From Herpetosiphon geysericola (GTDB lineage: Bacteria; Chloroflexota; Chloroflexia; Chloroflexales; Herpetosiphonaceae), in assembly GCF_001306135.1 (NCBI RefSeq), contig NZ_LGKP01000035.1, forward strand, positions 1 through 64,000: 64,000 nucleotides of DNA, in the 5' to 3' direction. The position numbers and the translations under genes were made by a program. Positions within the stretch are counted from its first letter, which is position 1. Each line of letters begins with the position of its first letter. Below the pieces are notes generated by a model. That model saw only the letters and a program-made list of their open reading frames with translations. It was not told where the DNA came from and did not search any database. Of this stretch, positions 11,774-61,924 are shown one piece after another.

Positions 11774-11852
11774 ACGATATACTCCTTGAAAACAGCAACG
11801 CATCCAGTCCAATCCTGGATGCGTCACATAGCAATCGTATCACGAAATCTGC

Positions 11853-12434
11853 TTAGGCGAATAACCAAATTAGGCCGGCAATCACCAACGTAAGCAAACC
11901 AAAGAGCCAAAAAATGCGCCGTTGAACGCGTGAAACGCCACTAAAATCAAATGCCACTTGATAGTTGTTGGTCGCTGGCAGTTGTTGCAACAACAATGGC
12001 CATAGTTTGGCGATGTTTGCCCAGCGCAATGGATTGATAATGACAATCGTATCACGCAGATCTTCGCTTGCTAAACGCCGTAGTTGTGGCTCTGGTAAAT
12101 TGGCATAGGGCTGGCGCAAAATTAGATAGGGCAGGGCTAGCCCCGCAATGCTCTGCAACGTGCCAACTCCTGCAACCTGCTCCCAATCAATCGTCACTGG
12201 CTTGCCTGAGTGCTTGATGATCAAGTTGGTTGCGCTGATGCTGAGCCGCTGATTCAGCCCCCGCCCAAGCCAAATCAGGATGCCGACTAAAAATAAGAGG
12301 CCAATCCCGAGTTTTACGCCTGGCTCGCTCAAGGCTTGCACGATCAGCATAATCAGCAGTGCACTAGCAATCCCAATAAAGCCAATGGTTGGCCACCAAA
12401 AACGCGGGCGAATGGTTATTATGTGTTTGGTCAT
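11853..12434 (-). CDS. Tandem membrane paralog 1 of 8 (possible PH-like domain), most divergent
   Basis: 193 residues: two N-terminal membrane helices (about 11-34 and 41-58), a soluble central domain beginning RLSISATNLIIKHSGKPVTIDWEQVAGVG, and a C-terminal helix (about 172-192). The core pattern 'xLxIsxxxLxIxxxxxxxxIxWexVxxVG' and the following YLILRQP are shared with the seven genes upstream and resemble bacterial PH domains; this fold is an inference. It lacks the E-Q-Q-Q-R-T segment found in copies 6 and 8. It is the last gene of the array and is noticeably richer in G+C than copies 2-8. Confidence 0.65.
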   Translation of the reverse strand: MTKHIITIRPRFWWPTIGFIGIASALLIMLIVQALSEPGVKLGIGLLFLVGILIWLGRGLNQRLSISATNLIIKHSGKPVTIDWEQVAGVGTLQSIAGLALPYLILRQPYANLPEPQLRRLASEDLRDTIVIINPLRWANIAKLWPLLLQQLPATNNYQVAFDFSGVSRVQRRIFWLFGLLTLVIAGLIWLFA

Positions 12435-12437
12435 GGA

Positions 12438-12998
12438 CTATTGTAAGCTCCATGCTAGCAATGCTGCACCTAAACCAAATATAAAAATTGCATATGGAAA
12501 TATTTTATTCCAGCTTTTGCCAGCTATTGGCACAAATAATTGGTTTTTAGGTTTAAAGCTAACTTTTGTTTGAATATGTTTAATGATTCTTGTATGATTT
12601 TCCCAAGCATCTAAAATAATCGCTCGATTACGATAATATTTGGGTAGATTTTGGCTATAGGGTAAATTTGGTAATTTCAAAGTTTGATTTAATGTAATAT
12701 AATGAAAATTACGATGGTAATTTGTGAATTCTTGGATGCCTTCAATGTCATTCCAAGATATAAAAATATCCTTTTGAAAAATTTGGTAAATAAGTATGCC
12801 ATCATTATTAATAGATAATCTAGCGTATAGCCTATTGATCATATTAATCAGGCCAAGCGATAGATAGAAACATAAAGATAATATTGTTTTCAATTCAAAT
12901 GTATTATCGAAAAATAGAAATATTGGTAATAAAATACATATAACAATACCAATTAAGATTAATCTATGATCTTTTGTTCGAAAAACTTCGTTTTGCAT
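12438..12998 (-). CDS. Tandem membrane paralog 2 of 8 (possible PH-like domain)
   Basis: 186 residues with the array's architecture: two N-terminal helices, a central domain starting RLSINNDGILIYQIFQKDIFISWNDIEGIQ, and a C-terminal helix after NQLFVPIAG. The LFVPxxx motif and the ILDAWE segment link it to copies 5 and 7. Codon use is strongly AT-biased. The gap to copy 1 is three bases. Confidence 0.65.
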   Translation of the reverse strand: MQNEVFRTKDHRLILIGIVICILLPIFLFFDNTFELKTILSLCFYLSLGLINMINRLYARLSINNDGILIYQIFQKDIFISWNDIEGIQEFTNYHRNFHYITLNQTLKLPNLPYSQNLPKYYRNRAIILDAWENHTRIIKHIQTKVSFKPKNQLFVPIAGKSWNKIFPYAIFIFGLGAALLAWSLQ

Positions 12999-13026
12999 AT
13001 ATGAAATCCTTTATGGATTTATAATC

Positions 13027-13602
13027 CTAGCCCCAAAGAATAAGCAGCGGAATCATAATTGGAATCATAATTAGCGAAAAGAAAAACACTCGTTTCGTAT
13101 AGTCCGAAAAACTAACCGTAAAAGGCACAATCAAATTATTATCTGCTGCCGATTGCATGTTTTGTTCTGCCAAATGCTTAATTTGCTGATGATTATCCCA
13201 TTCTTGCAACATTAATGTACGCCGATGATATGGTTTGGGGATAATCGAAGGAAAAAGCGAATCCAACAAATCAACATCACGCTCAAAAAAGATATATTCA
13301 ATTGGCCGATTGGATAGAATAAAATAGTGTAGATTTGAAATTTCATGCCATTTTGCAGTTTTAGTAGCATTAAATAAGCGTTTAACCGTAATCCCGTGTT
13401 CATCGACGATTAATTTTCGATAGTATTCGCTCAATAAAAAATACGCATACAACACAGACATAACAATAAATAGTACTGGAAATTTTCTCAGATTAAACAT
13501 TGTTTTATAGACGATAATCATAATAATCAATAGAACAAACCAGCCTAATGTGATTAACATTGTCTTTTTAAGCTTAGCTGCCCTAAATGTCATCGGTTGC
13601 AT
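13027..13602 (-). CDS. Tandem membrane paralog 3 of 8 (possible PH-like domain)
   Basis: 191 residues. Two N-terminal helices, a central domain with KLIVDEHGITVKRLF and AKWHEISNLHYF, then LQEWDNHQQIKHLAEQ, LIVPFTVSF and a long C-terminal hydrophobic segment (about 172-190). Related to copies 2, 5 and 7. AAGGGATTT lies before the ATG. Function unknown. Confidence 0.65.
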   Translation of the reverse strand: MQPMTFRAAKLKKTMLITLGWFVLLIIMIIVYKTMFNLRKFPVLFIVMSVLYAYFLLSEYYRKLIVDEHGITVKRLFNATKTAKWHEISNLHYFILSNRPIEYIFFERDVDLLDSLFPSIIPKPYHRRTLMLQEWDNHQQIKHLAEQNMQSAADNNLIVPFTVSFSDYTKRVFFFSLIMIPIMIPLLILWG

Positions 13603-13613
13603 AAATCCCTTGC

Positions 13614-14108
13614 CTAAATCTGAATATTGAATTGAACCCGAACTTGGTCGAATGTTTGCTGTTCGAGCTGCTGCTTGATCGATTCAAGCAATTCTGTGCT
13701 ACGCTCCCAGCGATCAAGGTACATCACGCGATAGGCATGATTATCGTTTGTCAGTTGGTTAATCAGTTGCTCGGACACCAATTGGTTGGCTTGCTGCACG
13801 ACCAAATATGGCCGCGGCTCGTGATCATGCTCAGTATAATTGATATAGGCAACCTCGTTCCAGCCAACCAGCGTGCGCTGTGGCATTTGATACATATCGA
13901 GACCTTGCTCGCTCACAATAATTCGTTCACGCGATTTCCAGAAGAGATTGATTAATAGCAAAACTAAACCAAGATTAATCACATATAATTCAATTTTTGC
14001 TGGCTCGCGAATAAGCCATAAGCCAAACGCTACCAATAAAAATCCACCAATCAAGCCAAAATTTGGTAGTAATAAATGGTCACTACGTTTAAAAATATGT
14101 GTTTGCAT
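13614..14108 (-). CDS. Tandem membrane paralog 4 of 8, lacking the C-terminal helix
   Basis: 164 residues, about 25 fewer than its neighbours. It has the two N-terminal helices and the central domain (RIIVSEQGLDMYQMPQRTLVGWNEVAYINY, then YLDRWERSTELLESIKQQLEQ) but stops shortly after VRVQFNIQI, so the final membrane segment found in the other copies is absent. It may be a natural soluble-tail variant or a truncated copy. It is separated from copy 5 by a 92-base, very AT-rich gap that may contain a promoter; ribosome binding site is weak. Confidence 0.6.
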   Translation of the reverse strand: MQTHIFKRSDHLLLPNFGLIGGFLLVAFGLWLIREPAKIELYVINLGLVLLLINLFWKSRERIIVSEQGLDMYQMPQRTLVGWNEVAYINYTEHDHEPRPYLVVQQANQLVSEQLINQLTNDNHAYRVMYLDRWERSTELLESIKQQLEQQTFDQVRVQFNIQI

Positions 14109-14200
14109 ATTTAGCTTAATCTATATTTGAATAGATAAAAAATAACCATTAGAAAAAATAAATATGTGGAAATTTAACCGTATTTTACGAATATAGTTAC

Positions 14201-14764
14201 TTAAAACAACAATAGAATTGTCACTGTTGTTACAATAACCCCAATAAGCATCACAATTAGGGCAAGCTTGGTGGTTGCAGTTTCTCGGGTGCTGGTAAAT
14301 GGCACAAACAGCTGATTTTCTGAGCTTGTGGCTGGCAGTTGCTGCTTGATTAATGCTTGCACTTTGCTTGCTTGCTCCCATAGATTAAGAATTAAGGTTG
14401 TTGCTTGGTTGGCTTTTGGTACATCGGCATATTCTAATGGCTCGACAAGTGGAATTGGTTTGCGCAAGACTAAATATTGCACTTCACGCGTGCCAAGCTT
14501 AACCTGCTGCTGCCCAAGAATATCGGCCCACTCAATTTGAATCGGTTGGCGAAAGATACGCCGAATAACCAAGCCATCTTGATCAATCAATAAGCGCGTT
14601 GTTAAACCATTGATTTGGCTTAGGATGAGAATAATGCATGAGCCAAGTACGAATAGGCTGCTATAAATATTTGTCGCTAGCCAAATTCCAAGTAAAATAA
14701 TCGCAACTATCAAAACAAACAGCTTTGTTTTATACTTTGCTAATTTGAATATATGCTCTTCCAC
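14201..14764 (-). CDS. Tandem membrane paralog 5 of 8 (possible PH-like domain)
   Basis: 187 residues, GTG start with AAAGGAAAGG upstream. Two N-terminal helices, then RLLIDQDGLVIRRIFRQPIQIEWADILGQQ, YLVLRKPIPLVEP, LNLWEQASKVQALI, NQLFVPFTSTRE and a C-terminal helix. It is closest to copy 7; they share DQDGLVIRR, the LRKxIP motif, WEQ and LFVPFT. No enzymatic motif. Confidence 0.7.
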   Translation of the reverse strand: MEEHIFKLAKYKTKLFVLIVAIILLGIWLATNIYSSLFVLGSCIILILSQINGLTTRLLIDQDGLVIRRIFRQPIQIEWADILGQQQVKLGTREVQYLVLRKPIPLVEPLEYADVPKANQATTLILNLWEQASKVQALIKQQLPATSSENQLFVPFTSTRETATTKLALIVMLIGVIVTTVTILLLF

Positions 14765-14795
14765 AGCCTTTCCTTTCTCATTTTTAAATCAAATA

Positions 14796-15386
14796 TTAAA
14801 TTGAACCAATAATTAACATGGCAATTACATTTACGATAATAATATAAAGATTGATTTTATCGTAATACATAAAGCTTTTTGGATATTTTTTAATCTCTGG
14901 AATGACATAATATGAATCATGATTTTGATATACTCGATGATAAATTGCTTCAAACAATTGCTGCTGTTTATTCCAGCCTTCAAGGGTAATGGTACGTTGT
15001 TGTTGCTCAGGTTTTACTTCCAGCAGCTTAACGTTTGGAAACTTAGCAATCGGCTCACGCAGTACGATAAAGGGAATCAAGCTGAAGCGTTTCCCATTGG
15101 CAATCCCTACTGATTCGATTGCATTCCAAGGAATAAACGCTCGCTGCCAGCCGCGCCGAATCAATAAACCACTATCGCTAATGCGCAATAAGGCGGTTGC
15201 TTGAACGAGACTTGGTAGCGCCATCGCAAGAAATAGCCATATGATGGTTAATCCCGAGAACTCAAACGACTGACCAATTGTATACATCAAAAATAGAATG
15301 ACCGCCAAATAGGTTATGCCATACAGGCGATAGGCTGAGCGAAAATTCAGTTCGGATGGTTTAATCGAATCGTTTGTTTCTAGCAT
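14796..15386 (-). CDS. Tandem membrane paralog 6 of 8 (possible PH-like domain)
   Basis: About 196 residues. Two N-terminal helices, then LLRISDSGLLIRRGWQRAFIPWNAIESVG, PFIVLREPIAKFP, PEQQQRTITLEGWNKQQQL and a C-terminal helix. With copy 8 it forms the second subfamily, marked by RRGWQ and EQQQRT-LTLEGW. ATG 15386 is preceded by GAGAG at five bases, as in copy 8; an in-frame ATG at 15398 is the alternative start. Confidence 0.7.
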   Translation of the reverse strand: MLETNDSIKPSELNFRSAYRLYGITYLAVILFLMYTIGQSFEFSGLTIIWLFLAMALPSLVQATALLRISDSGLLIRRGWQRAFIPWNAIESVGIANGKRFSLIPFIVLREPIAKFPNVKLLEVKPEQQQRTITLEGWNKQQQLFEAIYHRVYQNHDSYYVIPEIKKYPKSFMYYDKINLYIIIVNVIAMLIIGSI

Positions 15387-15452
15387 GGTGTCTCTCATTG
15401 CTCAAATCAATCGCTAGCCATTACGTCGGTAGCTGTTTGAAGGTTACACGCC

Positions 15453-16013
15453 TTAGCGAAACGTGTTTAAGCTGAAAAGCACGATTGCAATACCGATCGC
15501 AATAAGCAATGGTAATGCTTTGCGCAGATTGCGATCAACCGTAAAGGGCACAAAAAGTTGATCAGCTGGACTTTTTGCTGGCAAATGTGGCTCGATTAAT
15601 GACAATAAGCGAGTTGGTTGCTCCCAAGCCTCAAGAATAAAAACATTCGCCTGAAATTCTTTTGGTATAAAGATCGGTCTAAGCGTAGGAATGGCTTTCC
15701 GCAAGAGAAGATAGCGCATCTCACGCTGGCCAAGGTTGAAATAGTGTTGTTCAAGAATGTCGTCCCAAATAATGCGTACATCCTTACGAAACAAGCGCCG
15801 AATAACCAAACCATCCTGATCAACAATCAATTTGATGCTTAACTCGTAGATTGTGCTGGGAAAACTGACGAGAATGAGCAGCGTAAAGATCCAATTCAGA
15901 TCAAAATTACTATAGATTAATATAATAAACATAAGTATTTTGACGAATCCGATGGCAATGATTAATCGATAATTGCTTACTTTAAACGTAACTGAATTCA
16001 CGTTAGGATCCAT
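15453..16013 (-). CDS. Tandem membrane paralog 7 of 8 (possible PH-like domain)
   Basis: 186 residues from ATG 16013, which has GGGAG six bases upstream and overlaps the end of copy 8 by 11 bases; the open frame reaches 16157 but that would lie inside copy 8. Architecture: two N-terminal helices, KLIVDQDGLVIRRLFRKDVRIIWDDILEQ, YLLLRKAIPTL, ILEAWEQPTRLLSLIE, DQLFVPFTVDRN and a C-terminal helix. Closest to copy 5. Confidence 0.7.
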   Translation of the reverse strand: MDPNVNSVTFKVSNYRLIIAIGFVKILMFIILIYSNFDLNWIFTLLILVSFPSTIYELSIKLIVDQDGLVIRRLFRKDVRIIWDDILEQHYFNLGQREMRYLLLRKAIPTLRPIFIPKEFQANVFILEAWEQPTRLLSLIEPHLPAKSPADQLFVPFTVDRNLRKALPLLIAIGIAIVLFSLNTFR

Positions 16014-16599
16014 ATTTCGCTCCCAAATAAATAAAAATTGAAACGACAATGAAAAAATAGCAGAGATTGAATTTTTGATACGAGTAAAATCTTGGATGGG
16101 TTTTTGAGAAATTTGGAATGACCTGCCATTTGTGATTCTCGATATTGACGCAGACATGCAAGGCTTTGGCGATTAGCTTTGAATTGACCCAGCCTTCTAA
16201 GGTTAATGTTCGTTGCTGTTGTTCTGGTGTTAGTTCTTTGATTTTTATGCTTGGTAAGCCTTTAATCGGCTCGTACAAGACGATATATGGCATATGGATG
16301 CGTTTACCAACTACGCCGATGCCGAATGCTTCGACTTGCTCCCAATTAATTGCAAAGTATTGCCAGCCCCGGCGCATTACCAAGCCGCTGGCACTAAGAT
16401 CGAGATACGAAATCGCATTCATGGCAAATGGCATAGTCCCAATCGGAATAATGATGAGCTTCCAGAGGCTAGTCCAATCAAATTGCCACCTAATGGTTGT
16501 AATCATCAAAATGTATAGGATCAAAGATGTAATGACTAATCCAATTTGGATGCGTTGGTAGGGTGGACGTAAACGATATTTCAAGGATGCTGATTGCAT
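16003..16599 (-). CDS. Tandem membrane paralog 8 of 8 (possible PH-like domain), first of array
   Basis: 198 residues. Two N-terminal helices, then YLDLSASGLVMRRGWQYFAINWEQVEAFG, PYIVLYEPIKGLP, PEQQQRTLTLEGW and a C-terminal helix. Closest to copy 6. It is the promoter-proximal gene of the array, since all eight read leftward and the next gene upstream ends about 100 bases away. AGAGAGAACGT precedes the ATG. Confidence 0.7.
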   Translation of the reverse strand: MQSASLKYRLRPPYQRIQIGLVITSLILYILMITTIRWQFDWTSLWKLIIIPIGTMPFAMNAISYLDLSASGLVMRRGWQYFAINWEQVEAFGIGVVGKRIHMPYIVLYEPIKGLPSIKIKELTPEQQQRTLTLEGWVNSKLIAKALHVCVNIENHKWQVIPNFSKTHPRFYSYQKFNLCYFFIVVSIFIYLGAKYGS

Positions 16600-16656
16600 A
16601 CGTTCTCTCTGTATTCAGCAGAATCTCGATTATTACGTTGGTAACGCAACAACGTT

Positions 16657-16684
16657 GCGGCAGCAACCAGGCTGGCTGCTGCCG
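16657..16684 (-). terminator. Possible hairpin terminator after the thioredoxin-like lipoprotein gene
   Basis: GCGGCAGCA and TGCTGCCGT form an imperfect hairpin just downstream of the stop at 16697 (minus strand). No clear T tract follows, so the assignment is tentative. It would separate the lipoprotein gene from the eight-gene array. Confidence 0.35.
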
Positions 16685-16696
16685 TAGGCAATGAGC

Positions 16697-17590
16697 CTAG
16701 ATACCTTGGCTTAAAATGGTGTCGATCATAGGTCCAAGCTCTTCAGTGGTAATCCCACCTTCGTACTTGTTGACAATCGTGCCATCTTTGCCTAGCAAAA
16801 ACAGCCATGGCTCGCTTTGCAAGCGCCATTCGCTCATTGCTGGCACCAACAACGGCGGATTGGCTTGAACTGATTCGCTAAATGGAAATTTATAAACTTC
16901 AACATGGATGAAGTTCATTTTATCACCATAAGTTTTTTGCAAACTGCCCAAAACCGTGACGCTTGGGCCGCAAGTAGCGGTTTTGCAAAAGCCTGGTGTG
17001 CCAAACAAGATAGCGGTTGGTTTGCCGCTTTTAATCGCATCGGCAATGCTCAATTGATATAAGGCTGGGTTTGGTTTGGGATCAGAGCTAATTTGGCTGA
17101 GATCGGGGTTGGTTTTCACGGTTGGAGTATCAACCGCAATTGCCTTGCTGCCAAGCGCCGGAGTTGGATCTTGGGCGAGGACTGAAAGCCGCAGGGTGCT
17201 GACGGTTGGGGTTTGGCCTGGCAAGGTGGCCTCGACTTCAACGCCCCAATCGCCTGCCTGTTTAAAATCGGGGTAGGTTACGTAGATGCCTGCTGGCAAG
17301 CCTTGGCCAAAATACTCGGCGCTGCCTTCGCCTGCAACTTGGGTTTTCTCAGCATCGGTGCCATCAAGATAGTACAAGCGGAGTTTTACTTGCACTTTGG
17401 GATCGTTGATTGGCGAGCCATCGACGATCAAGCCAATTGGCAAGCGATTGGGGCCGACGACCAAATTCGATGCCGCCAATACTGCTTGCACGCGGCTCTT
17501 GACCACGGGGGTTGCGGTTGGGGTCGCTGCGCCACAGCCCACCAAGCCAACAATAATCACACCATATAGAATACGCCACCAACGCTGCAT
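16697..17590 (-). CDS. Lipoprotein with C-terminal thioredoxin-like domain
   Basis: 297 residues. A signal helix ends in the lipobox L-V-G-C with Cys19, followed by a T/P-rich linker, so it is probably anchored outside the cytoplasmic membrane. The middle resembles an Ig-like/FixH-type beta domain. The C-terminal 120 residues (AILFGTPGFCKTATCGPS, then EPWLFLLGKDGTIVNKYEG) look like a thioredoxin/SCO-like fold with a CX4C pair instead of CXXC. ATG 17590 has GAGGAG at seven bases; the frame extends to 17647. The role may be metal or thiol handling; no partner gene is adjacent. Confidence 0.7.
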   Translation of the reverse strand: MQRWWRILYGVIIVGLVGCGAATPTATPVVKSRVQAVLAASNLVVGPNRLPIGLIVDGSPINDPKVQVKLRLYYLDGTDAEKTQVAGEGSAEYFGQGLPAGIYVTYPDFKQAGDWGVEVEATLPGQTPTVSTLRLSVLAQDPTPALGSKAIAVDTPTVKTNPDLSQISSDPKPNPALYQLSIADAIKSGKPTAILFGTPGFCKTATCGPSVTVLGSLQKTYGDKMNFIHVEVYKFPFSESVQANPPLLVPAMSEWRLQSEPWLFLLGKDGTIVNKYEGGITTEELGPMIDTILSQGI

Positions 17591-17768
17591 ACTTGTGCTC
17601 CTCATACGGATTAATTGGTTATAGCTGCCAGCCAAAAATACTGACAATATTCACTCTAGCACAGATTCAATCGAAGACTATCAGTTACGCAACCGACCAA
17701 GCGCTCAGCCAGCTAAGGGCTATGCTACAATCGGGCTACAATTGCGATGCCCTAGCAAGGAGGCTGTG

Positions 17769-22140: not shown

Positions 22141-22550
22141 AGCATAGAGCATAGAACATAGAGCATAGGGAATTTGGCTATAGGCTATGGGCTAGCGGAA
22201 CATTTTTCTCGGATTCTCACAATTGTGCATCCTATAGCCAAAAGCCTGTAACCTCATCCTTCGTGGAGCAAGCATTCAACGCAGAGGCGCAGAGATTGTG
22301 TGGCTCTTGGCTATGGGCTAGCGGAACATTTTTCTCGGATTCTCACAATTGTGCATCCTATAGCCAAAAGCCTGTAGCCTCATCCTTCGTGGAGCAATCA
22401 TTCAACGCAGAGGCGCAGAGATTGTGTGGCTCTTGGCTATGGGCTAGCGGAACATTTTAAAGGATTCCTGCAATCTGCATCCTATAGCCAAAAGCCTATA
22501 GCCTTATCCTTCGTGCGCTTCGTGTCCTTCGTGGATCAATCACATCGCCC
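22141..22550. repeat. 126-bp tandem repeat block of the dispersed intergenic family
   Basis: No credible gene. A short run of 'atagagc'-type words (22141-22170) is followed by a 126-bp unit repeated from 22183, 22309 and 22435 (the third copy is partial). Each unit carries ggctatgggctagcgga near the start and tcctatagccaaaagcc further on, so it can fold, and ends with words such as cttcgtggagca and cgcagaggcgcagag. Those same words recur at 25.4, 32.2, 38.2, 48.7 and 50.6 kb. The last part (ttcgtgcgcttcgtgtcc) abuts the M50 gene. Confidence 0.85.
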
Positions 22551-26860: not shown

Positions 26861-29170
26861 CTAGCGGTAGCGCCATTGTTCGTAGTGTTGGCCGACGTTA
26901 CCCATTTCGACTTGCCAATCGGCGGGATTGCTGGGCGTGTAGGTCAGCACGCGGCGCTCGAAGGCTTGCACCAGCACTGTTTGTTCAACGCCGCCAACAT
27001 ACACTTTGGCCCAGTAAGCTTCGCTAATTGGGTAGCCTAAGGCAAAGACCCAATCCATCACTTGGCCTTCTTGAACTTTACCGTTTTGATTGACTAAGCC
27101 TTGGCGATTGACAAAATTCCAGAAGGCGCTGGGAATGTTGTGGCCAGTTTCGGGCACATAATGCACCAATTTGGCAGCATCGTTGAGGTTGCCAGCATAG
27201 GCACTAACCTTGCCACTGCGCGCTAATTGCTGGTCGGCAAATTTGCCTGTGCGGTCATTGGTTGCGCCAAGCAAATTGCTAAAGCTCGCATAGGTTGGAG
27301 CAGAAGCATCGCCTAAGTCGCCAGCAATGTTAATTTGGGCTGGGGTGCGCTGCACATAGTTGCTATCGCCAATTTGAATTTGGCCTTGGATCAATTCCTT
27401 GGCCAACAACCCGTTGGTGACAAACCATTGGCTTTGGCGATCACTCTCGAAATCGCTAATTTCCATGCGCGATTTATCGAAATATTGCACTTGGCGCAAA
27501 CCACCAGGCGATTGATCATAGACTTCGGCGCGGGCTTGGCCGCTGTTTGGCCCCCATAACCACGAACGCACAGCTTGGCCGCTGGCCACCGGCGCATCGG
27601 CATGGGACCAAACCTTGTTGAAGGCTGGATCAGCAAATTTGCCATTGCTGCGGGTATCGAAGTTTGGCAATTTGTTGCTCGAAAAATTGGTTGGGGTTGG
27701 ATAGGCCGAGGTTGGCGTGCGCGTTGGCGTGCCCGTTACCGTGCCAGTTGTCGTCGGCGTGCGCTCATCATCAAAGGTCGGGGTCAGATCATCTTCATCG
27801 AAGGTTGGCGTAATTTCGCCATCATCGAAGGTTGCGGTTGGCTGCATCGTTGGCTGGCCTTGGTTGGCGTTGCTCTTGATCTGGAAGGTCAAGGTGTAAT
27901 CGATAAATTGATTGCCAACATCGCCCACATTTTTGACTTGCACAAAGTAGAAGCCATCGACGACTGGCGAGAAATCGATCCGCGAATCTAAGCCCGATTC
28001 ATAATCGTCGTTGAAATCGATAATTGTCGTGCCGTCACGATCGGCGAGCACCATCACTGTATCAGCCCCAACGCTGAGATCCGAGGTAAACAGCGAATAG
28101 ACTTTGCCCGCTTTGCCGAAGAATTTGACCCAATCTGCATCGCCGCGTGGGCACAGACGATGGTCGGGATGCACTTCGCCAACCACAATCAAGGGCGCGA
28201 TTTCCGGCAAACCATCTGGCTCATACAAATCTTCGCAAATTTCGGGAATGAGCGTTGGCGTGGGGCCATAGCTTTCGCTGTTGAGCACCACCGTGTAGAG
28301 GGCATCAATAAAGCCGCGGCCTGCTGAATCGCGCACCTTGATATAGTATTGGCCGTTGGCTGGCGCGCGCCACGATTGAATCCGTGGCTTGATATCGCTG
28401 GGATCGTTGTTGCGCGGAAAGTCGTCGTTGAAGGCCAATTGATTGCCATTGCTATCGTAAAGCGTCAACGAAAGGTCAAGGCCATCGGTCATTTGCGAGA
28501 CATCGATGGTGTAGACTTTGCCCTCTAAACCGCCAAACAAGAGCCAATCTTCATCGCCAACTGGACAAATCGCGTGGATTTGGGGCACATCAACTTCAAT
28601 TCGGCGCGCTTGGCTACGGGTGTTATTTGGTTCGAAACCATCGTTTCTGGTATTACCACTTCCATTACAAACCCGCACAGGAGTGCCAGAAACAATCGGA
28701 GTAAGTGTTGCGGTTGTTGTTGGAAGCGGCGTTGCTGTGGGAGCCGGTGCAACTCGCACTCGCAAACCTGAAAGCCTTGCAATTGAAGTAGGTGTCGTGG
28801 TTGACGCAGCTTCAACACTAAGGGTCGCAACATCACCATTATTGGCGGTTGGAGGAATATCAACCGTAAGACTAAAATCCTGCGATCCGTTATTTGGAAC
28901 AGGAACGGGACTTCCTACAGAAAGTGTAGCATTCCAGCCAGGAACGATCGAGAAATTAATATTGAACGAATCCGTGCCTGGTCCTAAGTTATCGAGAATA
29001 ATCCTAAAGGTTACACTTGTGCCTGCTGGGCCAGTTAAAGTAGGATTATTTGGGCTAAGTGATAAACTAGGGGTTGCAGCATGTACTTTGTCTGGCTCTG
29101 GTACTATCAAAAATAGTGGTAGCAACATAGCCAAGAGCACCACAAACATCAATAAACGCATCCGTTTCAT
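26861..29170 (-). CDS. Large secreted protein with PPC-type domains and T/P-rich linkers
   Basis: 769 residues. A signal peptide (residues 1-33, ending near VHAAT) is followed by a beta domain of the 'CARDB/NEW3' type (LSLSPNNPTLTGPAGTSVTFRI, about 35-140), a T/P linker, and two copies of a PPC-like domain (FEPNNTRSQARRI... CPVGDEDW, and EPDGLPEIAPLIV... CPRGDADWVKF). Then come a low-complexity T/P/D linker with repeated TPTFDD, and a C-terminal 250-residue domain that ends VGQHYEQWRY, common in Chloroflexota secreted proteins of unknown role. ATG 29170 is used (GGAG at nine bases); the frame begins at TTG 29176. It is likely on the cell surface. No catalytic motif. Confidence 0.8.
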   Translation of the reverse strand: MKRMRLLMFVVLLAMLLPLFLIVPEPDKVHAATPSLSLSPNNPTLTGPAGTSVTFRIILDNLGPGTDSFNINFSIVPGWNATLSVGSPVPVPNNGSQDFSLTVDIPPTANNGDVATLSVEAASTTTPTSIARLSGLRVRVAPAPTATPLPTTTATLTPIVSGTPVRVCNGSGNTRNDGFEPNNTRSQARRIEVDVPQIHAICPVGDEDWLLFGGLEGKVYTIDVSQMTDGLDLSLTLYDSNGNQLAFNDDFPRNNDPSDIKPRIQSWRAPANGQYYIKVRDSAGRGFIDALYTVVLNSESYGPTPTLIPEICEDLYEPDGLPEIAPLIVVGEVHPDHRLCPRGDADWVKFFGKAGKVYSLFTSDLSVGADTVMVLADRDGTTIIDFNDDYESGLDSRIDFSPVVDGFYFVQVKNVGDVGNQFIDYTLTFQIKSNANQGQPTMQPTATFDDGEITPTFDEDDLTPTFDDERTPTTTGTVTGTPTRTPTSAYPTPTNFSSNKLPNFDTRSNGKFADPAFNKVWSHADAPVASGQAVRSWLWGPNSGQARAEVYDQSPGGLRQVQYFDKSRMEISDFESDRQSQWFVTNGLLAKELIQGQIQIGDSNYVQRTPAQINIAGDLGDASAPTYASFSNLLGATNDRTGKFADQQLARSGKVSAYAGNLNDAAKLVHYVPETGHNIPSAFWNFVNRQGLVNQNGKVQEGQVMDWVFALGYPISEAYWAKVYVGGVEQTVLVQAFERRVLTYTPSNPADWQVEMGNVGQHYEQWRYR

Positions 29171-29299
29171 AGGCAACTTCTCCGCTTCAAGGCTGGTGAT
29201 TAATTGAAAGAGATAGGGTTAAAAAGAGCAGCATTGCTATGCTGGTCCATTATAACGTCAAATATTGATTTTGGGGCAGGCGCTTAAGCTTGCTTTGAC

Positions 29300-38737: not shown

Positions 38738-39217
38738 TTAGATTTGCGGCGTATAGCGCTTAAACAACCGATATGGAATAAAATAGAATTGAAAGATACA
38801 TTGAACGAGATAACTAATAATAAATGTAAGAATTTTTGTGTGATCATAGTCATCAACAATCAACCAATAAGCTAATCCCACCCATAGAAATAGAACCCAA
38901 AATGCAATTAATGCCACACTCTTGCGATAGCTATTGAGATTAACTTCCTTTGTTCGAAATTTATACCAAAGCATAACTGCATAGATTAATCCTGCGATTA
39001 CATTCATTGGCAAAAAAATAAAGAACCAGGAAACTACTATTAACTGAACAATCGATGTCTGTTGAACTTCAGCGGGTGTTTGGGTAACAATATAGTGAAT
39101 TGTGTAGATTAATGCTGCAATAATACTGGGCTTGAATTGCTGAGCCATAACGAATAATAGAAATTTTTTGAAATTTTGAATCAAAAATTGATTGCTTACC
39201 ATATTCATATTGTACAT
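38738..39217 (-). CDS. Small AT-rich membrane protein, unknown
   Basis: 159 residues with four hydrophobic segments, and charged C-terminal end. No family recognised. AAGGAG precedes ATG 39217 by eight bases. Strongly AT-biased compared with its neighbours, as is the next gene upstream, which is 23 bases away on the same strand. Confidence 0.6.
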   Translation of the reverse strand: MYNMNMVSNQFLIQNFKKFLLFVMAQQFKPSIIAALIYTIHYIVTQTPAEVQQTSIVQLIVVSWFFIFLPMNVIAGLIYAVMLWYKFRTKEVNLNSYRKSVALIAFWVLFLWVGLAYWLIVDDYDHTKILTFIISYLVQCIFQFYFIPYRLFKRYTPQI

Positions 39218-39240: not shown

Positions 39241-39972
39241 TTATTGTAATAACTGCATTCTTATGTTATTGCTAATAAACGTATCTGAAATTCCAGGAAT
39301 AGAAGATATTAGACTATTTATGCATAAATGCGCACCATAGTTATCAAAATCGAATCCATTTAAGCTGCTAGATGCAAATACATATATTGCGGCACTACTT
39401 GTTGCCCAACGAAGATTATCTGGATTTGATGAGGAAATATCAAAATATAATACAAGATCTGTATCACTTGGATCATTATCACAAATAGTAGTATAACGCT
39501 GATGCCATGTTGGTGCTTTATCTTCCAAATAGTTAACATAGGGTGTAAAATATTCAATGAACTGTCTCCAACAGAATCCTTGCTGTTGAGCAGTTGGATC
39601 ACATCCAGCTTTATTGGCATCGATCTGCACACTGTCTAGTAATTTTCTTTCATTAGTCAAACCTTGATCTATAGCCTGACTTGATTCATTTTTGTAGACA
39701 AATTCTTTGTTTATAATCTCATTCATTTCAATAAATTTCTCGTTATCTAATGATTTTATGAATATTTCAGCTTCATTTACCGTTATATTTTCATCTATTG
39801 CCAGACTGATAAAATCTCTTAAGTCATCTTTACTTAAATCTTTAGAATCTTTTGTTAGTACAGTTTTGCGATCATCTATCCTATCTTCAGACCTTGCTTT
39901 AATCGATGGCGTTTCCTTCATAATAGCTATTAATAAGATACATACCATGATTAAAAAACTGAGCTTTTTCAT
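39241..39972 (-). CDS. Secreted AT-rich protein, unknown
   Basis: 243 residues. Signal peptide (MKKLSFLIMVCILLIAIM), a charged helical first half (repeated SKDDLRDFIS-like acidic segments), and a second half rich in Cys and aromatic residues (CDPTAQQQGFCW, TTICDNDPSDTDL, AHLCINSLI), suggesting disulfides outside the cell. No family recognised. Very low G+C suggests late acquisition. Confidence 0.6.
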   Translation of the reverse strand: MKKLSFLIMVCILLIAIMKETPSIKARSEDRIDDRKTVLTKDSKDLSKDDLRDFISLAIDENITVNEAEIFIKSLDNEKFIEMNEIINKEFVYKNESSQAIDQGLTNERKLLDSVQIDANKAGCDPTAQQQGFCWRQFIEYFTPYVNYLEDKAPTWHQRYTTICDNDPSDTDLVLYFDISSSNPDNLRWATSSAAIYVFASSSLNGFDFDNYGAHLCINSLISSIPGISDTFISNNIRMQLLQ

Positions 39973-60661: not shown

Positions 60662-61924
60662 GTGTTGAATCCTTCGAATGGTAACGCTACGATCGTGCGC
60701 TTTATTAAGCCAACATTAGTGCTGGTAGCACTTTTTAGTTTTATTAAGTTCATCATTATCTATGGAATTAATATTGCGATTCATAAAAGTACGCTTGATT
60801 TTCCATCATTCTATTGGGCGAGTGATGCTTTATTCAATAACAATATTTCTCCCTATAATATTGACTATATTCAAAAAAATACCGGCTTAGCTGTATTCCC
60901 ATTTATTTATCCACCACCAAGTATAATTTTTTTCTTTCCAATGTCGTTATTTACCTATGATCAAGCGTTTCTTATTAATTTATTGCTTAATCATCTGGCG
61001 ATGATTTTGCTTATTGGATTATTGGTTAAAATTTTCGAATTTGCATATTTTTCTTATCAGTCGATCCTTATAACAATTTTAGTCTATACATCTTTCCCAT
61101 TTATGCAAAATGTTTATCTTGGTCAGATAAATACATATATAATTATTTTTGTGTTGCTATTTTTGATAATGAGACATAAGTATGAAAACATTGCCTGTAT
61201 TTTATTAGGTATTTCGATAATTGTAAAAATGTATCCAGCGGTTATTCTGCCACTATTACTTTTCAATAAAGATTATCGAATATTGATTAAAACGAGTTGT
61301 GTCATTGTTTTTACAACAATTATTGCAGCGTTTGCTATTCCAAGCTTTGTCTGGCAAGATTGGTGGCTTAATATTATTCCTAGTGGTGGCTACGGTAAAT
61401 ATCCAAAAGGTTTATTACAAACAGCATCAGTCTACAATCAAAGCCTCAATGGTTTATTTGCTAGAATTTTTACAAATCAAGAAGATTCATATCAACTTAT
61501 TTATAACCCAAGCTTAGGAACAGCTTTAACCTATGTGTGTTGTGGCTTCTTATTCTTTATAACGCTGTTTGTGACTGCTAAATATATCAATAAGAACGCA
61601 AAAGATGCCCTAGAAAAAATAGTATTTGTCACAATGCCATTGATTTTCCTCATTGCTCCTTTTTCATGGAGCGTTCACATTGTCACGATCTATCCGACAA
61701 TGATTTATTTGATTAAAATAGCCTATGAACATCAATCGAAGCTAGCCGGTGTTCAATTGCTCTTCCTAATTGCAGTTATGATTCTCTTTTTTTCACCAAT
61801 TGTAAGTACATTTTGTTTATGGGCTATCTTTATTATTTGGCTGCTGATGCTGAACGTGATTATCAAGCAACGCTCGTTAGCGTCAGCTACTGATCAGCCC
61901 CAAATAGCTGTAACAGCGCATTAA
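60662..61924 (+). CDS. GT87-like membrane glycosyltransferase (DUF2029)
   Basis: 420 residues, GTG start with GAGGAAAG upstream. About ten membrane helices; LDFPSFYWASDALFNNNISPYN is the DUF2029-type first loop (D-F-x-x-F-Y) and GISIIVKMYPAVILPLLL the later conserved segment. A polyprenyl-phosphate-mannose-dependent mannosyltransferase type. Very AT-rich relative to neighbours, with a strong inverted repeat at the end, so possibly horizontally acquired. Confidence 0.8.
   Translation: MLNPSNGNATIVRFIKPTLVLVALFSFIKFIIIYGINIAIHKSTLDFPSFYWASDALFNNNISPYNIDYIQKNTGLAVFPFIYPPPSIIFFFPMSLFTYDQAFLINLLLNHLAMILLIGLLVKIFEFAYFSYQSILITILVYTSFPFMQNVYLGQINTYIIIFVLLFLIMRHKYENIACILLGISIIVKMYPAVILPLLLFNKDYRILIKTSCVIVFTTIIAAFAIPSFVWQDWWLNIIPSGGYGKYPKGLLQTASVYNQSLNGLFARIFTNQEDSYQLIYNPSLGTALTYVCCGFLFFITLFVTAKYINKNAKDALEKIVFVTMPLIFLIAPFSWSVHIVTIYPTMIYLIKIAYEHQSKLAGVQLLFLIAVMILFFSPIVSTFCLWAIFIIWLLMLNVIIKQRSLASATDQPQIAVTAH

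Follow-up and report, generated by a model that had tools for sequence, protein, structure and literature searches.

The window analysed here, 64,000 nucleotides of Herpetosiphon geysericola (positions 1 to 64,000 of contig NZ_LGKP01000035.1, part of a 6.14 Mb genome in 46 contigs), carries an array of eight consecutive minus-strand genes, running from 16599 to 11853, that encode homologous membrane proteins for which a PH-like fold is credible. The building block is known from STM3941-like and other bacterial PH (bPH) membrane proteins; the arrangement is a new variation on it, and the array is genus-specific and unusual in scale. From the way in which these genes evolve, and from the PH proteins YdbST and those of bacteriocin loci, we tentatively propose that the array may be a diversifying protective or immunity-type set directed against membrane-active antibacterial factors.

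A preliminary description, made from the letters alone, had recognised eight same-strand homologous genes at 11853-16599, numbered here c1 to c8 as they were there, that is, opposite to the direction of transcription (c8 to c1). All eight open reading frames (ORFs) are present, with intergenic gaps of -11 to 92 bases, and each copy is recovered by a profile of the other seven, with E values from 3e-12 (c1) to 7e-35 (c5) in the leave-one-out searches (Z=5000). In order of transcription, they are c8 (16003..16599, 198 amino acids), with two membrane helices, a PH-like domain and a third membrane helix; c7 (15453..16013, 186 amino acids); c6 (14796..15398, 200 amino acids); c5 (14201..14764, 187 amino acids, with a GTG start); c4 (13614..14108, 164 amino acids); c3 (13027..13602, 191 amino acids); c2 (12438..12998, 186 amino acids); and c1 (11853..12434, 193 amino acids), the last gene of the array. 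All eight proteins have two N-terminal hydrophobic helices and seven also have a C-terminal one, as had been described; the exception is c4. Two tryptophans are invariant in every copy.

The closest pairs by blastp are c5/c7 (37%, 1.5e-34) and c6/c8 (36%, 1.7e-28), and the suggestion that a pair of genes, rather than a single gene, was duplicated is borne out by phylogeny. Of the 39 Herpetosiphon copies placed in a maximum-likelihood tree, c5 and c7 form one supported clade (95/92; 94/86 in the other tree), while c6, c8 and the solo copies described below form another (83/91; 98/98 in the other tree). Duplication of physical neighbours was rejected by the approximately unbiased (AU) test, both for c7 with c8 (p-AU 3e-5) and for c5 with c6 (p-AU 6e-9). 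The order of transcription being 8-7-6-5, both sister pairs can be accounted for by a single duplication of a block of two genes, and the trees support an array built by repeated duplication that included such a block. The arrays of the relatives record a richer history than one pair duplication: in H. llansteffanensis CA052B (G005) the order is 8-7-5-6', where 6' shares only 52% identity with c6 and has its branch outside the c6-type gene of another species (G002).

Concerning the fold, AlphaFold models were built for c2 and c8 from alignments of 29 rows (predicted local distance difference test score 78, predicted template modelling score 0.63 and 0.67). In both, two membrane helices come after a short N-terminal strand; next are at least five strands and a helix, and a further membrane helix closes the chain at the C-terminus. 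Each model contains a PH-like beta sandwich with its C-terminal helix. The top rows of VIA-align are, for both models, nearly all PH, PTB, FERM F3 or GLUE domains at Z 6.4-8.3, a range of which the tool itself warns that values of 7-8 may arise by chance; the bacterial PH domains 3dcx and 3hsa are among them. Foldseek E values for the models are only 0.007-0.05, and the array profile, run against the sequences of solved structures, gave nothing meaningful (best E 0.24). Sub-threshold matches in Pfam and NCBIfam are to PH-type families (DUF6585, bPH_6, bPH_7 and STM3941_fam). Because the structural matches are consistent and these family matches accompany them, a PH-like fold is credible, and the bPH-like central domain proposed earlier is upheld with moderate confidence. 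The VIA alignments begin in residues 1-7 and jump the hairpin, and the models set a strand ahead of it, which suggests that the PH domain is split by a two-helix membrane hairpin. Two to four lysines or arginines precede the first membrane helix and most hairpin loops contain few charges; this distribution of charges suggests a cytoplasmic PH domain.

To follow the array across the genus, six Herpetosiphon genomes (G000 to G005) were compared, among them H. aurantiacus DSM 785 (G001), Herpetosiphon giganteus DSM 589 (G003) and G005. All six carry it at the identical site, between a gene for a CrtC-type lipocalin and the gene at 16697-17647. Eight is not a fixed number: there are eight copies in G000, G003 and G005 and four in G001, G002 and G004. 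Three types, c8, c3 and c1, are the only ones common to all six. In the short arrays a variable second slot holds the remaining gene, a c7-like copy in G001 and G004 but a c6-like one in G002; these relatives have neither c2, c4 nor c5 and lack either c6 or c7. The preliminary description had entertained a membrane complex of homologous subunits beside a diversifying set. An obligate complex with all eight proteins as subunits was rejected as unlikely because of the copy number of 4-8, the changed order and these missing types; a smaller one with c8, c3 and c1 at its core is possible. Solo c8-like genes lie away from the array in G002, G004 and G005. Two of the solo copies (L043:7910-8488 and L044:7532-8107) stand in divergent orientation to a pair of genes for a histidine kinase and a response regulator, and the third (L042:8035-8622) is without such neighbours.

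Outside the genus, no array was found among 158 genomes of the class and 400 of the phylum Chloroflexota, a count limited by the sensitivity of the profile. Only single weak matches to the array profile occur there, apart from one genome with two, on different contigs; a tandem pair in G024 looks unrelated. Beyond Herpetosiphon the two genes flanking the array are far apart or on separate contigs, and no unoccupied site was readable. A plasmid search with c2 gave no match and a scan of viral contigs with a c6/c8 profile found no relative; there is therefore no sign of mobile carriage.

Rates of evolution were evaluated by comparing the window with its two nearest relatives, G003 and G005. Among these three species array proteins are 51-96% identical, against 90-99% for most flanking genes, and the ratio of nonsynonymous to synonymous divergence (dN/dS) is 0.14-0.49 for the array and 0.01-0.12 for most neighbours. 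Purifying selection thus acts on the array genes on average, more weakly than on their neighbours, and at these values the array is kept by selection yet changing. The window has a few other fast genes; one of them (26861-29176, minus strand), whose large product carries a pre-peptidase C-terminal (PPC) domain, evolves nearly as fast as the array, with a dN/dS of 0.25-0.27. The fastest evolving array gene is c8, in which dN/dS is 0.68 for the N-terminal hairpin, 0.17 for the PH part and 0.45 for the tail. We rejected the idea that the membrane hairpin is diversifying in all copies, this contrast being clear only in c8.

Synonymous divergence (dS) is uneven along the array. In one species pair it is 0.06 for c3 and 0.5 for c8, and for c6 against G005 it reaches 1.3; the values of neighbouring genes are mostly 0.13-0.43. 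The likeliest explanation is recombination or conversion, old paralogues being the other, and part of the unevenness could come from the AT-rich codons of c2-c4. Against G003, c3, c4 and c2 have dS values of 0.06-0.14, at or below the low end of the flanking genes, a hint of recent interspecies exchange or of codon constraint. Of the functional options offered earlier, the diversifying set fits these data better, with raised dN/dS, mosaic dS and lineage-specific copies. As for c4, its start codon is followed at once by a stop in G003 (ATG then TAA) and replaced by ATA in G005; because the C-terminal helix is also absent, c4 is probably eroding or using another start.

The closest named family is, by sequence, STM3941 (NCBIfam NF041635), with which the array proteins have in common two N-terminal membrane helices followed by a PH-like domain with a GI/GL...W..I motif. 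The genes c2, c4 and c3 match this family, as do 9 of 29 array members in all at E<=0.01. These scores stay below the curated cut-off of 40 bits, the best in the window being 30 bits (c2, E 4e-7) and the best of the 29 members having an E of 1.3e-7. By hhalign, the array profile matches the Chloroflexota STM3941 hits with a probability of 86%, over the part from the second membrane helix through the PH domain. The array differs from the family also in the C-terminal membrane helix that most of its members add and in its long tandem arrangement. Matches to PADLOC defence models were weak and scattered (DrmC at 1e-3 and others), and those to STAS, Mating_N and UspB stood at E ~0.005; all were taken as chance.

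A second likeness is one of layout. For the c2 model the best Foldseek row points to the NOX2-p22phox-EROS structure 8kei and, within it, to chain D, which we take to be EROS from its length and shape, as the row carries no name; the match covers 168 columns, near full length, and is weak (E 0.047, template modelling scores 0.39/0.43). EROS (CYBC1), Ycf4 and PIGH appear to share with the array an N-terminal strand, a membrane hairpin and then the rest of a PH-like sandwich; the array, in contrast, has no sequence match to them, seems to place its hairpin after strand 1 instead of strand 2, adds a C-terminal membrane helix and is multicopy. In EROS and PIGH two membrane helices are described as lying between strands of a PH domain (PMC9767466), and EROS is described as a chaperone whose plant orthologue is Ycf4 (PMC13296129).

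The functional precedents come from other proteins. YdbS/YdbT and DdE/DdF are bPH_2 proteins; like the array proteins they are bacterial and membrane-anchored, and they are encoded in pairs and tied to bacteriocin resistance or export. YdbST protects B. subtilis from amylocyclicin (PMC8144471), PH proteins similar to YdbS/YdbT occur in leaderless-bacteriocin loci (PMC10311245, PMC8657885), DdE and DdF are required for the export of EntDD14 (PMC8657885), and the geobacillin 6 cluster contains similar PH-protein genes (PMC10311245). In contrast to these, the array has no bacteriocin genes noted nearby and no bPH_2 domain (PF03703) among the Pfam matches of the 29 array members; the two bPH_2 proteins found in the genome are encoded on another contig. 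Defence against secreted effectors offers a further known pattern, that of orphan immunity genes which lie in tandem and evolve fast (PMC5361080, PMC12247911). The orphan immunity arrays of Vibrio type VI secretion and of Bacteroidales share with ours tandem fast-evolving paralogues and turnover at fixed sites, and differ in that ours is without a linked effector or secretion system and is retained vertically throughout a genus instead of being present in a mosaic fashion.

The locus encodes a tandem family of inner-membrane proteins in which a PH-like domain, probably cytoplasmic, is apparently split by a membrane hairpin and, except in c4, a C-terminal membrane helix is added; its chromosomal site is the same throughout Herpetosiphon, although copies are gained, lost and altered. 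In the protective set that we propose, each protein would be matched to a different membrane-active peptide or toxin with antibacterial action, whether from the cell itself, a sibling or a competitor. The specificity would lie in the membrane and extracytoplasmic face of the protein, and the PH-like domain would be the conserved scaffold. Herpetosiphon are predatory soil bacteria. The turnover of copies, their retention, their fast change and the altered membrane face of c8 fit a repertoire meeting changing partners. That the locus represents a new type of envelope defence, a recombining tandem repertoire of PH proteins split by membrane helices whose membrane faces diversify against membrane-active weapons while the PH domain stays constant, is unlikely on present evidence. 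Several observations weigh against a protective role. Beside the array, a reading of the ORFs revealed no gene for a toxin, a bacteriocin or secretion (no genome-wide toxin search was made), and beside the solo copies only the histidine kinase and ordinary genes stand out among the translations. A mobile-element signature is absent at the array, change focused on the hairpin is clear in one gene only, and the conservation of c1 and c3 in all six species resembles that of a house function more than that of a repertoire directed at particular weapons. YdbST is a member of a different bPH family (bPH_2), and its precedent is therefore one of analogy only; averaged dN/dS is below 1 everywhere, and therefore positive selection is not demonstrated.

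It is also conceivable, if somewhat doubtful, that the proteins are complex subunits or chaperones in the manner of EROS, Ycf4 and PIGH, hairpin PH proteins that would stabilise or assemble a partner membrane protein, with a core of c8, c3 and c1 hetero-oligomerising or serving one partner and the other copies accessory. The near full-length match of c2 to 8kei chain D, the chaperone role of a PH domain with inserted helices in EROS, the three types common to all six genomes and the encoding of homologous subunits in one operon, which suits hetero-oligomers, all speak for it; yet the structural match is weak and was obtained for the c2 model only, copy number and order vary, the second slot is c6-type in one species and c7-type in two, and no partner appears among the flanking genes. 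Weakly constrained lineage-specific duplicates, arising by repeated tandem duplication and slowly decaying without distinct specificities, would explain the damaged start and lost helix of c4, the generally relaxed dN/dS and the low guanine plus cytosine (GC) content. We consider this rather improbable, since three species retain seven of the eight genes undamaged, with dN/dS of 0.14-0.49, and the c8, c3 and c1 types persist in all six genomes. Most improbable is that the proteins are accessory factors for transport of, or self-resistance to, a peptide made by Herpetosiphon itself, as DdE/DdF are for enterocin DD14: the part of these proteins in EntDD14 export and the kindred genes of geobacillin 6 favour it, but neither a peptide gene nor an ATP-binding cassette (ABC) transporter was noted beside the array, and bPH_2 proteins, which the genome does have elsewhere, are not among its members.

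The array is likely one transcription unit, as judged from its compact spacing and its borders: a repeat precedes it and the longest terminator-like stem in the scanned stretch follows c1. The intergenic leader (16600..16696, minus strand), conserved across the six species, contains, following the gene upstream, a repeat able to form a hairpin (GGCAGCAGCC...GGTTGCTGCC) and then the presumed array promoter. The terminator-like hairpin, directly 3' of c1 (11795..11827, minus strand), has 13 pairs and is a consensus match only; such sites were no commoner in the scan than in shuffled sequences. The start of c7 is most likely the ATG at 16013, which overlaps the c8 stop by 11 bases, rather than the 16157 of the longer ORF. 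The AT-richness noted earlier for c2-c8 holds, their GC content being 27-42% (27% in c2) against about 51% in the flanks and 50% in c1.

The window has other features. An AT-rich island (31% GC at 39-40 kb) encodes, at 39241-39972 and 38738-39217 (both minus strand), a probably secreted 243-amino-acid protein and a multi-helix membrane protein without a Pfam match. Another AT-rich gene (60662-61924, plus strand, 34% GC) encodes a polytopic membrane protein of 420 amino acids, perhaps a glycosyltransferase, and adjoins a gene for a protein with two VWA domains. At 22175-22515 lies an intergenic tandem repeat with a 126-base unit in 2.7 copies (93% matching).

Hardly any function has been assigned to bacterial membrane PH proteins, those like STM3941 included, and a full-text search of the literature for STM3941 returned one paper, which names it in passing. 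Herpetosiphon, with a multiplied and diversifying family of such proteins, would be a tractable place to learn what they recognise, the question at stake being whether they give protection against attack on the membrane or, like EROS, help in the assembly of membrane complexes.

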